Shown here: positions 4,601 to 51,600 of the stretch, piece after piece | Layout: each line of letters opens with the position of its first letter | Numbering within the stretch: position 1 is the first letter of the stretch | DNA from: Macrocystis pyrifera | Taxonomy: Eukaryota; Sar; Phaeophyceae; Laminariales; Laminariaceae | NCBI GenBank assembly: GCA_031763025.1 | Contig: JASSKH010000014.1 | Coordinates: 9,724,563-9,788,562 of the forward strand | DNA length: 64,000 nt | Reading direction: 5' to 3' | Notes under the pieces: generated by a model | Seen by the model: the letters and a program-made list of their open reading frames with translations, nothing else | The model's database searches: none | Told to the model about the DNA's origin: nothing | Translations under genes and position numbers: made by a program

Positions 4601-7600
4601 GCAAAAACCGCCCAACAGTAATCGATCGACCCATGACGTTCAACGTTAACGAATATCGCCGTTCCCACTCAACGGTAACCAGTACCGTTACCTTCCAACG
4701 GACACCAATACTTTTCCCATCTAACGCCACACCAATTCCGATACCATTCAACAAGCAACCATATTCAATACTGTCACCTTCCAACGGACACCAAATAAAT
4801 TTCCCATCTAACGCCACACCAATTCCGTTACCGTTCAACACAACGATATTCAATACCGTTTCATTCCAACGGACACCAATCCCGATGCCAACCAAAGCTA
4901 AACCAATATCGATACCGTCCAACGGGTAACGCCCAATGACAACCAACGGTGGCCAATACCGTTACCTTCCAACGGAAATCAATACCGTTACCATCCAACC
5001 GAAAACCAATATCGTTACCGTCCAACGATAGTCAACACCTCAACCTTCGAACCAACGGCAAGCAATACCGTTATCTTCCAACGGAAACTAGAACCGTTAC
5101 CATCCAACCGTAAACCAATACCGTTATCTTCCAACGGAAACTAGAACCGTTACCATCCAACCGTGAACCAGTACCATTACCATCAAACCCGTTACCGTCC
5201 AACGGATGCCGCCCAACAACAACTAACACCTCAACCTTCGAGCGGTAACAAAAAATACACCGCCTCCCACACACATCACCCCAACACCGAGAGAAAAAAA
5301 AAGCCCTGCAAGAAAAATAGTTACCTGGTATAACCCACTAACGATAATAATAAATACTACTGAAAATAGCGTTAACTTTCGTTTTCCGGAATCCAGGAGA
5401 CAAAAAAAAAAAAAAAAAAAAAAAAAAACTTCACCTCGATTTTTCGGCTCTTAGCGTGGCCAAACTCTCCCTCAAGAGCTGCGACAACGCCTCGATATCA
5501 TCCTGACCGGGGAGGAAAACCAACACATCCCCGTCTCCCTCGGCCTCCTCGTGAATCTGCAGACACGTCACCAGACACGCGTCTAGGTAGTCGTCCTGAA
5601 AAAAGCGCGACAACAGCGGCAGTGGCAGCGGTAGGGGTGCCGGCGCGGGCGACGTTACTATTCTATTAACAGGCTAATATTAATAATACGGCATATAGGC
5701 CATACTACTACATACTACCGCACTTACTCAGAAGCAGAGCTCGCCACGGAGACGAAAACCATTCATCTCCGTATGCTTGCACAACGATAATTGTAGGGTT
5801 GGATTGGGCACTACGACTGTGAGTTGGCTATCAACATATCGGCAACTCGAAGCTCCAACTATTACGGGGGTCCATAGTTAATAGGACCCATGGTATACAT
5901 CAAAACCTATATACTTAACTATGTTTACTAAAAAAAAAAATGGTCCCGTTAACTATGGACCCCCGTAGTAATAATAGTTATTCGACTAATTGTAACTAGT
6001 TGGCTATTAATAGGTGTTCCACATAGATTTTGTGAGAAGGCGCCAACTACGGCTGTAGTGGTTTAGTTGGCCAGGTGTTTCAGTTGCATAGTTGTGTGCG
6101 GTAACCCGCGGGGTTCTGCGTCTTCGAATCTGACTGGCGAGATTGTGGGCCCGATGCTTCGTGTGCATTATTAAATACAACACTGCTGTATTGAATACAA
6201 GACCAAAAAAGTCAGTTGGCTTACTGCGGCACCCAACTCAACAAAGAGTTGGGCTTACTTCGCCACCCAGCTAACAACTAGCCGTCAGGCCCAGCGAACT
6301 CACAGCTCTCCAACAGTATACCAGGTACAGTTTTGACCGATGCCGCCGGTACAAACGGCAATTTTAAGCATCCCAGAAACCCCCCCCGTGCACCATTCTT
6401 CCAAGCGAAAGGAGTTACTAAAATCCGCACGGCCGACGAAACAAATACCGGCCGAAGATTACATAGAAAAGCTGGGTGGAGCCGAAGAAACTACTAACCT
6501 GCGTCAAGCCGAGGATTCCATAGAAAACCTGGGTGACGTAAAACATTGTATCGATCTGAGCGAAGCCTAAGGTTCTTCGTCCGAACGAAAAAATTGGACG
6601 TTTTTTTTTTTTTTTTCTTTCTTTCTTTCCGGCGCGAGATACGAGCGAGACCCCCATATATACAACAGTTTCGTAATGCTCTGCTGTCAGCCAGGGAACC
6701 CTCAGCATGACATCGATATGTGGAGGAGGTACCGGACTTGACCCTTCATCAAAAGCGAGAGGGAAACAACAAAATCGACTATTAATAAGAGAGGGGCCTT
6801 CTCATTTTGTTGCTTGCCTCAGTCGTTTGACCATTGACCACGCATCCCTTTCGAGATGGAGCAATAGACCAGGAGTGGAGGGGGAGAGGGCAGGGAAAAT
6901 GTAATGGATTGGGGGGGGGGGGGGGGGGGGGGGTACGCAATATCATGCATGGCCGTAGTCGTATGACCATAGACCCTGGCGTCCCTACAATGCCGGGACG
7001 GAGCATGTCGGGTTTCCACCGACCAGGCAGGCATTGCTTGCACCAAGCGCGAAGCGCCGTGAGGTGTTGGGTGAGTCGCATGACGGGTGAGCTGCATCCT
7101 ACTAAGAACCGCTCGTGAGGCGGATTTTCTTGCATATGGATGACAGCATCAATGAATTGATTTAATTTCTGGTGTGGTCACTTCCAGAGACAGCAATGGG
7201 TTTACTATGCAACTGCCTCGTGGACGCCTCATCATATATACACTACGTGATACGATCATCCCCCTAGTGCGGAGTAAAGGTTCTCCCCCCACAAAAAATG
7301 ATCTAACTCGACCGCGAGCCGTGGTAACCGCCCAAAAAAAAAGAAAAACGGTACCCTGGCTGTCTAGCTCACGCAGTGAGAGGCGTGCTTTACAGCGTCG
7401 TCGCCAACCGACGCCAACCCAACCTATATATACCAGGTATACAATACAGGGGCGGGGGGCGGGGCAACCGAATTTGTAGCGGTACGTGACGCTCACAGCG
7501 ACGACTCGCGCACATCTTCGCAGAACAGGGAATCAAGCAAAGGGAGCTCCCATCGAAACGGCCGCTCAGACGTGCGTTGTCCCATCTACTCCCATTCCAT

Positions 7601-48600: not shown

Positions 48601-51600
48601 CCGAACCGAACCGAACCGAACCGAACTCAACCGAACCGCTGCGAACCGAACCGAACTGAGCCGAACCAAATCGAACCCGACCGACCACCTCCCAAGGTAG
48701 TAGTCGTGGGTTGCGCAAGACAAGGAGACATAAATCAAGCGAAGCGCTTCCAGCAGCCGTCAAGCCAAACCTGCTGGCGAAGACCAGAGGGGAGCCGCCT
48801 CTCTTTCTGGCCGGTACCGGCTCTAGGGGTATCCAGGCCGTCACGAAGTCGTTGCAGTCCAGCGGTGCCATGTTAAGGTCGGAGTGCCACCGCGTCGGGC
48901 CGTCCCCTGGCCGCTTGCAGAACGTGGAGTCCTGGTAAAGCTTCACGCTGGTCGGTGGATGGATGCAAGGCCGCGCACAAACAAATGAAAACGCCACGCG
49001 TGGTGCGCGCGAACGGCCACAGCGACGTAAGCCGAAGCCGACGCGTGAAATCGACGGGACGCACTCGGTGAGGGCTAGGACGTAGGACCATTTCGGATCG
49101 GCACACTGCATGAAATCCTGCCGGAATATTGCGGTCCAGCAGTATCGGTGCGTTTCTGCGCATAGAGTTGCGCAGACAGCTGAGCGTAAAGCTGCGCACG
49201 CATTTACAGCACAACCCACCAGATAGGAGCGAGGACGAGCTCTGAACACGTTCGCACATCGCGTCACATGCCCGCCGCGCCCGCTATTCCAAGCGCGGCT
49301 CTTGACGCCTGCATCAGCACGCGACCAGACGAAACGGTCGATTCACCTCGATCATCCACGAGAGTCTACATGCAGGAGAGAAAGCCACCGCTGCTTACCG
49401 TTCACAACCAAGGAGCTGCGCGGCGACATGCGCAAGGCGTGGAGACAGTACCACCTTCTCGACGGCCTCCTGGTACGGACCGGCCTTCCGGAACATGTTG
49501 AAAACCTACAACAGAGGCGACGTCATTACGTTGCACCACAAAAGTCAAGGCGTCGCGAAAGCAGTCAGACGATGACGATGGAGAGGCGGGGTGGGGTGTA
49601 CGTGATATCATGTATGGCCATAGCCGTATATCCATAGACCCTCGCATCCCTACACTGCCGGGACGGGGTACGTCCGGTTTTCACTGAACAGGTAGACATT
49701 GCTTACACCAAGCGCGACGCGCCGTGAGGTGTTGGGCGAGTCGCCCGACGGGGGGCGCGGGGGGGGGGGGGGGGGTACTCATTATCATGCATGGTCGTAG
49801 TCGTATGACCATAGACCCTCGCATCCCTACAATGCCGGGACGGAGCACGTCGAGTTTTCACCGACCAGGCAGACATTGCTTGTACCAAGCGCGACGCGCC
49901 GTGAGGTGTTGGGCGAGTCGCACGAAGGGTGAGCTGCATCCTACCAAGAACCGCTTTAGAGGCGGATTTTCTTGCATATGGATGACAGCACCAATTGAAT
50001 TGATTTAATTTCTGGTGTGGCCACTTCCAGAGCCAGCAGCGGGTTTACTATGCAACTGCCTCGTGGGTGCCTCACCATATACATACACACTACGTCATAC
50101 GATCATCCCCCTTTGTGCGGAGTAAAGTTTATCCTCGCACAAAAAATATCTATAATTTGATCGCCAGCCGCGGTAACCGCCAAAAAGAAAAAGAAAAAGA
50201 AAAAACGCACCCTGGCTGTCTACTCTAGCTCACGCAGTGAGAGGCGTGTTTTATAGCGTCGTCGCCAACCGACGCCAACCCCCACCTATATATACCAGAT
50301 ATATAATAGGGGGGGGGTGTATTGGATATTATGCATGGCCTCAGCCGTATGACCGTAGACCCTCGAATCCTTAAAATGCCGGGATGGAGCACGTCGGGTT
50401 TTCACCGACCAGGCAGACATTGCTCGCACCAAGCGCGAAGCGCCGTGAGGTGTCCAGCGAGTCGCATGAAGGGTGAACTGCATCCGACTAAGAACCAGTT
50501 GTGAGGCGGACTTGCATGTAGATTACGGCTTCAATGAGTTAATTTCATTTCCGGTGTGGCCACTTCCAGAGACAGCAATGGGAGTACTACGTAGCTGCCT
50601 CTTGTGTGTCTTACTACGAACACTACGTGATACGATCACTTCTCTTGTGCGGAGGAAAGGCTCTCCACCCCGCACGATTGATCTAGCTCGACCACCAGCT
50701 GTGACCAACCGCCCAAAAAAAACGAAAAAAAAAAAAAACGGTACCCTGGTTGCTTTTCTACTGTACTTACAGTGTGGTTGCCAACCGACGCCAACTCAAC
50801 CAATATAATATATAGGGGATGTACTCGATAGGAGAGATGTACTCGATCTCATGCATGGCCGTAGTCGTATGACCATAGACCCTCGCATCCCTACAATGCC
50901 GGGACGGAGCATGTCGGGTTTTCACCGACCAGACAGACATTGCTTGCACCAAGCGCAAAGCGAAACGTGAGATGTCCCGCGAGTCGCATGAAGGGTGAGC
51001 TGCATCCTACTAAGAACCGCTTGTGAGGCGGACTTGTACGGGATGACAGCTTCAATGAGTTAGTTTAATTTCCGGTGTAGCCACTTCCAGAGACAGCAAT
51101 GGGAGTACTATATATAGGGGGGGGGGATGAGCAGAGAAAACGAAAAATATCCTACGAAGTACATAAACTAGCAGATGTCGGCTGGCGGTCTAGCTCTGAC
51201 CCGTCAAAGTCTCTTGAGACTTTTCTATATTTGTTTAGTGTGGGAAGTTCTATGACGGCTGTCCCGTGTCGGGACAAGGGTGCCGTCAACCGACATATTT
51301 GTCTAGCTTTGACACGTCAAAGCCTCTTTGGACTAAATATACTAACTTTAGTGTGGGGAGTTCCGTGGCGGCTGTCCCGTCGAGGGACAAGAGAGCCGTC
51401 AACCGATATAATTGGTTCTTACGGGGTGCGGGGGTAGCCGGGCATTCGAGAGGCAATGCCGAAACATCTGTACGTTTTGTGGTCCCATCTTGGGGAGGCG
51501 AGGGTACACAAAATCAAACAACTCATGTGCGTACGAACGCACCTGTCCTAAGTTTGTTGGGCGCACAGAGGGCCGGAGTTAAACCTGACCAGACGCAAAT

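Follow-up and report, generated by a model that had tools for sequence, protein, structure and literature searches.

A short non-coding repeat family with C-runs on both sides of most copies in the kelp Macrocystis pyrifera: a probable retroelement of C/G homopolymer tracts

Background

Retroelements that target simple repeats are already known; Waldo, Kibi and Koshi, for example, are non-long-terminal-repeat (non-LTR) elements of this kind, with target units other than the C/G homopolymer considered here. We describe a repeat family in a 64,000-nucleotide stretch of the genome of the kelp Macrocystis pyrifera (the window; positions 9,724,563 to 9,788,562 of contig JASSKH010000014.1, assembly GCA_031763025.1), with a body of about 520-550 bp and with C-runs on both sides of most copies. 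It is probably a non-autonomous retroelement, dependent on a long interspersed nuclear element (LINE) and inserted by target-primed reverse transcription in C/G homopolymer tracts that were already there, its own tail becoming a new landing site. Two kinds of system treated in the available part of PMC2887409 come close to it. DONG at (TAA)n and TRAS at (TTAGG)n occupy existing simple repeats, as the present element appears to do, with different target units; RTE LINEs of Lepidoptera carry their repeat along and make microsatellites, and their copies, like those here, are 5'-truncated and have a simple repeat abutting the 3' end. There, however, the repeat is found 3' only, between target-site duplications, whereas here C-runs flank most copies. 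By analogy the two-sided runs point to the kind that uses a pre-existing repeat, with some bringing of repeat as well. In the literature searched, a C/G homopolymer target for retroelements was not recognised among the matches listed; PMC12809410, in its available part, treats poly-C overhangs on LINE-1 endonuclease substrates, not C-tract insertion.

The nearest published neighbour, by description, is brown-algal RTEX-N1. RTEX-N1_Ec32 of Ectocarpus is a non-autonomous element of about 600 bp with more than 6000 copies; its 3' end is conserved with that of RTE-X LINEs, the origin of its 5' region is unknown, and it is similar to the present element in length and in having many copies (available part of PMC12477816). 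Its dependence on a LINE by way of the shared 3' end is assumed in that source, as is proposed here; compared by description only, it differs in that no C tail or C-tract target is mentioned in the part of the source available, and a C-tract habit may already be recorded for it. Kelp LINEs include Jockey, RTE, L1 and CRE (PMC4421812, in its available part).

The element and its copies

A search of the window with nhmmer, using a model built from 12 copies, found 13 copies at E<1e-20 and one weak match, Q (E 0.0014), and blastn added copies N and O; this makes 13 strong copies, together with a very short one and two from a related second family. Nearly all counts given here come from this one window, and some element boundaries were set by hand. 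The copies, in order of position, are as follows (percentages are divergence from the consensus).

Copy I, 1194-1541, plus strand: 5'-truncated, 5.2%; 5' flank CCCCTCCCCCC; tail TCCCCTCCTCT then C12
Copy Q, 6793-6863, minus strand: second family, matching the main family weakly; 5' side without a C-run; C4 near the 3' end
Copy A, 6911-7452, minus strand: full length, 4.9%; C23 at 6911-6933; 5' flank CCCCGCCCCCCGCCCC
Copy J, 21891-22393, minus strand: old (14.3%); 3' end lost at GATTA, then C6; 5' flank C7
Copy K, 24617-24782, plus strand: truncated at CTCACGGCGC; (CCG)n followed by C5 as 5' flank; ACCCCG followed by C15 as tail; GCC-repeat flanks on both sides
Copy M, 25040-25170, plus strand: truncated or rearranged; 5' junction without a C-run; tail ending C8
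Copy H, 31790-31922, plus strand: truncated at CTTGGTGCAAG; 5' flank GCCCCCCTCACCCC; first in a head-to-tail cluster
Copy F, 31923-32434, plus strand: long; start inside the C-rich tail of H; own 3' end lost at the junction with G
Copy G, 32434-32938, plus strand: no C-run at its fusion with F; extended at the 3' end by another GAGTAC, followed by A and C7
Copy N, 35497-35530, plus strand: body of about 24 nt; C11 run; 5' flank AGTACACCCC, resembling an older element tail
Copy O, 35621-35698, plus strand: second family; end TGAGTA then C14; 5' side without a C-run
Possible micro-copy P, 36800-36826, plus strand: C6 ACAACGAGTACG C9; may be chance
Copy L, 41890-42085, plus strand: truncated, 13.3%; 5' flank CCCTCCCCCC; C11 run at the 3' end
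Copy E, 49585-49752, minus strand: truncated, 12.8%; start at the C-tract ending B; most downstream member of its cluster
Copy B, 49753-50308, minus strand: full length, 6.0%; 3' end C17, GCGC and more C; start directly after the C9 run of copy C
Copy C, 50309-50814, minus strand: near full length, 12.6%; 3' C9 run; 5' flank CATCCCC, which is the tail of D
Copy D, 50815-51126, minus strand: 5' deleted, 6.6%; 5' flank C10; 3' extension shared with G

Read in the sense direction, with the C-run rightmost, the element has an AT-rich start, a T-rich stretch inside and an end of the form CATGCATG..AT.GAGTAC followed by C, its last part reading ...GGTCATACGACTACGGCCATGCATGATATTGAGTAC ahead of the C-run. 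The 3'-end pattern CATGCATGNNATNGAGTACCCCC, with up to three mismatches allowed, has five matches in the window and none in 100 shuffles. The body is non-coding, the longest stop-to-stop frame in the 521-nt consensus being 78 amino acids (aa); 5' ends are variably truncated, and copies longer than 100 nt are 4.3-14.3% divergent from the consensus. Counted by eye, and including the C of GAGTAC where a run directly follows GAGTA, a C-run of at least five lies within about 30 nt of the 3' end in 12 of 16 copies, the longest being 23; the exceptions are D, E and Q, with 4-C runs only, and F, which is without its 3' end. The sequence-only reading of this window had described a repeat of about 550 bp without an open reading frame (ORF), present about a dozen times with a constant 3' end and a C-run next to it, and this description stands, as do the truncations it named, those of K at 24617, of H at 31790 and of N, at 35497, to a body of about 24 nt. 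The range it gave, 6911 to 51118, leaves out copy I, and C-runs at the 5' ends had no place in its account.

In some copies the C tail does not follow the first GAGTAC directly but starts behind another GAGTAC or behind an A, T or G. Second GAGTAC motifs at the 3' end occur in D (50819-50850, minus), G (32905-32938, plus) and K (24745-24763, plus), as an extension common to D and G and as a short repeat, AATGAGTACAATGAGTACA, in K; they look as if the 3' end had slipped or been extended during priming. GAGTAC occurs 35 times in the window on the two strands, a figure that bears on whether P arose by chance.

The second family consists of O and Q, which are 87% identical over 71 nt and have about the last 65-70 nt in common with the main family. 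Because this family has the same last part, and because O ends in TGAGTA-C14, the data suggest that the 3' end may be what the enzyme recognises. No structure is claimed for the RNA of this end, since only one of 12 predicted pairs is changed on both sides, or for single copies, which fold weakly (z -1.65 and -2.12).

C-runs at the 5' junctions

The truncated copies begin at about positions 197, 243, 348, 367, 391, 407 and 496 of the consensus, and each has C ahead of it, the flanks being those given above for I, L and H, and C10 (D), C6 (E), C5 (K) and C4 (N). With the boundaries that nhmmer set, at least five C lie within 15 nt upstream in six of the seven truncated copies at E<1e-3 (six of eight counting Q), against a background of 1.8% of 115,456 positions outside elements; this automatic test was restricted to truncated copies, the model beginning inside the body of six long ones. 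With boundaries set by hand, at least four C are found at 13 of 17 5' junctions against a background of 4.5%, and at 9 of 12 when copies with another copy as upstream neighbour are set aside (12 of 16 and 8 of 11 without the doubtful P). G-runs of at least four were found at none of the same 17 junctions, and in a control, a palindromic family of about 110 bp in the same window, a C- or G-run of at least four lies near 5 of 44 ends. Of the 29 C/G-runs of at least eight, ten are found no more than 20 nt from an element end and read as C in the sense direction, and none near an end reads as G, the mean under random placement being 0.39 and the maximum 4 in 2000 trials; this count takes in the 3' tails, which are themselves part of how the family is recognised. 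Most window copies thus have both flanks in the target repeat, as simple-repeat-targeting elements do; the readable junction of a copy on another contig, described below, does not.

Since C-runs precede copies that are truncated at different internal points, at least part of the C-run would seem to be target DNA. The claim of a C tail in the sequence-only reading holds as far as C-runs do lie at most 3' ends; they are not simply a tail, C being present upstream of most copies as well. No clear target-site duplications were found at the nine places where flanks were compared, the shared strings amounting to at most one letter (L), to 5-8 nt (seven places) or to a 12-nt GCC-repeat (K). The flanks of I share the 8-nt CCCCTCCC, and those of P, outside the nine-place comparison, have GCCCCCC on both sides. 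As the shared strings are short and several are C-rich, any duplicated material is probably C or C-rich, to judge by these flanks; a duplication of C only would be invisible inside a C-tract, so the flank data fit insertion into such a tract.

Head-to-tail clusters and kinship

Seven of the copies lie in two clusters, D-C-B-E (51126 down to 49585, minus strand) and H-F-G (31790 to 32938, plus strand), with all members co-oriented within each cluster. The inner junctions are C-rich in four of five cases (D-C, C-B, B-E and H-F), the fifth being F-G, where the 3' end of F is lost. In a tree of the eight long copies, from which E, H, K and L were left out, D of the first cluster and G of the second are sisters with support of 97/96 (96.9% identity over 261 nt), and C stands beside the pair with support of 96/94. 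By identity B is nearer to H, K and A than to C or D; the nearest relatives of D and of B are not their cluster neighbours, and no neighbours are reciprocally closest. Repeated insertion is favoured over tandem duplication because duplication tends to give mutually closest neighbours, and repeated insertion into one C-tract would explain both the order and the ancestry of the copies better than satellite duplication. That the cluster members are separate insertions is supported by the tree; as for the order of insertion, B and D would, judged by divergence, have arrived later than C and E.

Copies on other contigs

A 33-nt pattern from the 3' part of the element matched three contigs of bacterial metagenome-assembled genomes (L001, L002 and L003). 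The copy on L002, a contig with telomere-like repeats and with ORFs that look eukaryotic by eye, ends GAGTAC-A-C11, and the copy on L003 ends GAGCACCCCTCCCCCC (CCCC then C6); the 3' end of the L001 copy is cut off by the end of the contig. At the other side, L002 starts inside the element, and the L003 copy leads into a short, tandemly repeated piece of itself. The L001 copy is truncated and has a C23 run (165-187) about 84 nt further upstream. Bacterial-looking genes give way to element-bearing DNA in L001 at that homopolymer of 23 and in L003 at about 3150. L001 and L003 are probably chimeric assemblies in which a bacterial contig is fused to foreign DNA, and we infer that this DNA is seaweed contamination. 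The three bacterial groups concerned are presumably seaweed associates; no literature tying these taxa to kelp was found. Element patterns searched against viral contigs, and one copy searched by blastn against plasmids and phages, gave no result.

Long C/G runs in general can be assembly errors; the occurrence on a separate contig, L002, of a copy that has this 3' end together with a C-run speaks against pure assembly error in the present case. The window also holds very long homopolymers at 27342-27494 (a G-run of 153) and 37607-37712 (two C-runs, of 28 and 77, separated by a single A), which are either real slippage products or assembly artefacts.

Class of the element

A constant 3' end with variable 5' truncation is the trace left by target-primed reverse transcription. 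Both are present here together with a short non-coding body, the combination that marks a non-autonomous, LINE-dependent element of the RTEX-N1 type. Because none of the 134 ORFs scanned, out of 137 in the window with at least 100 aa, has a match to a reverse-transcriptase or transposase family (E up to 0.01), the enzyme is presumably encoded elsewhere in the genome.

Other classes were considered and rejected. The terminal inverted match (score 6.0) that a DNA transposon or a miniature inverted-repeat transposable element (MITE) might show was equalled by 367 of 500 shuffles, and the element has no terminal inverted repeats; the direct end-to-end match relevant to long terminal repeats also scored 6.0, the shuffles having been run for the inverted match only. 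A protein-coding element is excluded by the 78-aa limit on reading frames and by the scanned ORFs without reverse transcriptase. Short interspersed nuclear elements (SINEs) in the strict sense are, like the present element, short, non-coding and dispersed; they differ from it in their RNA polymerase III boxes, which are not above chance here (all 300 shuffles reached the best A-box score of the consensus, and 267 of them the best B-box score), and in the tRNA, 7SL or 5S head, no such family appearing in the window's 24 Rfam matches (E up to 5) and ARAGORN finding no tRNA there. The six long copies (A, B, C, F, G and J) contain sense-strand T-runs of at least five, which would be expected to stop RNA polymerase III. 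A satellite array is disfavoured by the kinship of the cluster members and is taken up below with its points in favour.

The proposal of target-primed reverse transcription in the sequence-only reading is partly supported: it fits the constant 3' end, the variable truncation, the lack of inverted termini and the clusters, whose members do not look like duplicates of one another, and it is not backed by clear target-site duplications.

Mechanism and alternatives

On the reading that we consider probable, the element of about 520-550 bp would be copied by a LINE-type reverse transcriptase coded elsewhere, from an RNA ending ...GAGUAC, perhaps with some C. In a C/G tract already present, the enzyme would nick the strand of G, freeing a G-tailed 3' end that would pair with the 3' end of the RNA and prime the cDNA. 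Synthesis would often stop early, giving the 5' truncation that is observed, and the second end would join the rest of the same C-tract, leaving the copy between two C-runs in a fixed orientation, an arrangement that most copies have. The downstream C-run of the new copy would then serve as the landing site of later ones and so build the head-to-tail clusters. A narrower proposal, put forward tentatively and with somewhat less than an even chance in our estimate, is that the reverse transcriptase and endonuclease are specific for (dC)n/(dG)n, cutting the G-strand and using the G-tail as primer, each insertion making another C-tract.

Were this so, elements and their own landing sites would spread jointly, which would help explain the wealth of long C/G runs in the window; the second family, with the same 3' end, would use the same enzyme. 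If insertion into C/G tracts holds in general for this element, it would be a retroelement that creates landing sites as well as occupying them, its enzyme would be a natural one priming on G-tracts, and the long C/G runs that trouble assemblies would have a plausible source. It would also be a clean test case for repeat-making versus repeat-targeting retroelements.

Several observations weigh against the insertion of this element into pre-existing C-tracts. Four copies are without a 5' C-run: the rearranged M, G with its fusion to F, and both members of the second family, O and Q. On the other contigs the 5' junction can be read only for the L001 copy, and it has just CCC. The 3' runs (up to 23) are longer than the 5' runs (4-10), and for this reason an RNA tail, or slippage while priming, may add to them. 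By identity the nearest copy is the adjacent one for C (D, 88.5%) and for E (B, 86.1%). No empty site was seen, and that the C-tract was there before the insertion is what we infer.

Of the alternatives, the one that survives best is compatible with C-tract targeting: the family could be the 3' part of an autonomous LINE whose long copies end alike by chance, as the 65-70 nt shared with the second family would allow. It is unlikely, in that A, B and F, and probably C and J, start within the same AT-rich stretch of 40 nt, which random truncation would not be expected to give.

The greater length and purity of the 3' runs and the L001 junction would all suit ordinary target-primed reverse transcription at unselected sites from an RNA with a poly(C) tail, the upstream C-runs being incidental; the RTE elements of Lepidoptera produce 3' simple repeats without target preference (available part of PMC2887409). 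We regard this as rather improbable, for the 5' junctions in the window adjoin C-runs far above background despite their different truncation points, and the nine flank comparisons gave no clear non-C target-site duplication.

Penelope-like elements have a hammerhead ribozyme and partial head-to-tail copies of one insertion as hallmarks, leave truncated copies head to tail and prefer simple-repeat sites, so that the clusters could mean that the partner is such an element and not a LINE. The window, however, has no hammerhead ribozyme among its Rfam matches up to E 5, and the clusters do not consist of pieces of a single insertion, as D groups with G of the other cluster. A partner of this kind appears quite unlikely, even with 4782 copies of PLE/Chlamys given for Ectocarpus in the available part of PMC12477816.

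Capture of cDNA at breaks in fragile C/G tracts through microhomology repair, independent of an endonuclease, would account for C-rich junctions, for flanks with no clear target-site duplication and for the 3' ends lost in F and J. The constant 3' end beside C and the uniform orientation within clusters suggest ordered priming from the 3' end instead, and we judge such capture very unlikely.

Least probable by our estimate, and only barely credible, is a dispersed satellite or tandem repeat with the C-run as part of its unit, spread by recombination between C-runs: the units of about 520-545 bp standing head to tail in both clusters, the identities of C with D and of E with B and the F-G junction without the 3' end of F speak for it, and against it are the lack of reciprocally closest neighbours, the kinship of D with G and of B with H, K and A, and the isolated truncated copies that keep the constant 3' end.

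Other features of the window

A tandem array of 52-bp units (GCTACGATAGGGGTACTTTCGAGTACC...) at 33576-33901 contains a GAGTACC motif like the 3' end of the element. Coding-looking pieces lie at 48563-49342 and 11044-11724, both on the minus strand. A phytanoyl-CoA dioxygenase-like ORF scores 21.5 bits, just below the Pfam cut-off of 22, and gave no result against viral contigs; a DEAH-helicase-like exon was judged by eye only. The palindromic family of about 110 bp used above as a control is near-palindromic and MITE-like, with ends CTATTACGGGGGTCCATAGT ... ACTATGGACCCCCGTAATAG, and is found at 22 places within 5859-62120 in both orientations, about 70-91% identical to the query, where it overlaps several weak miRNA-like Rfam matches.

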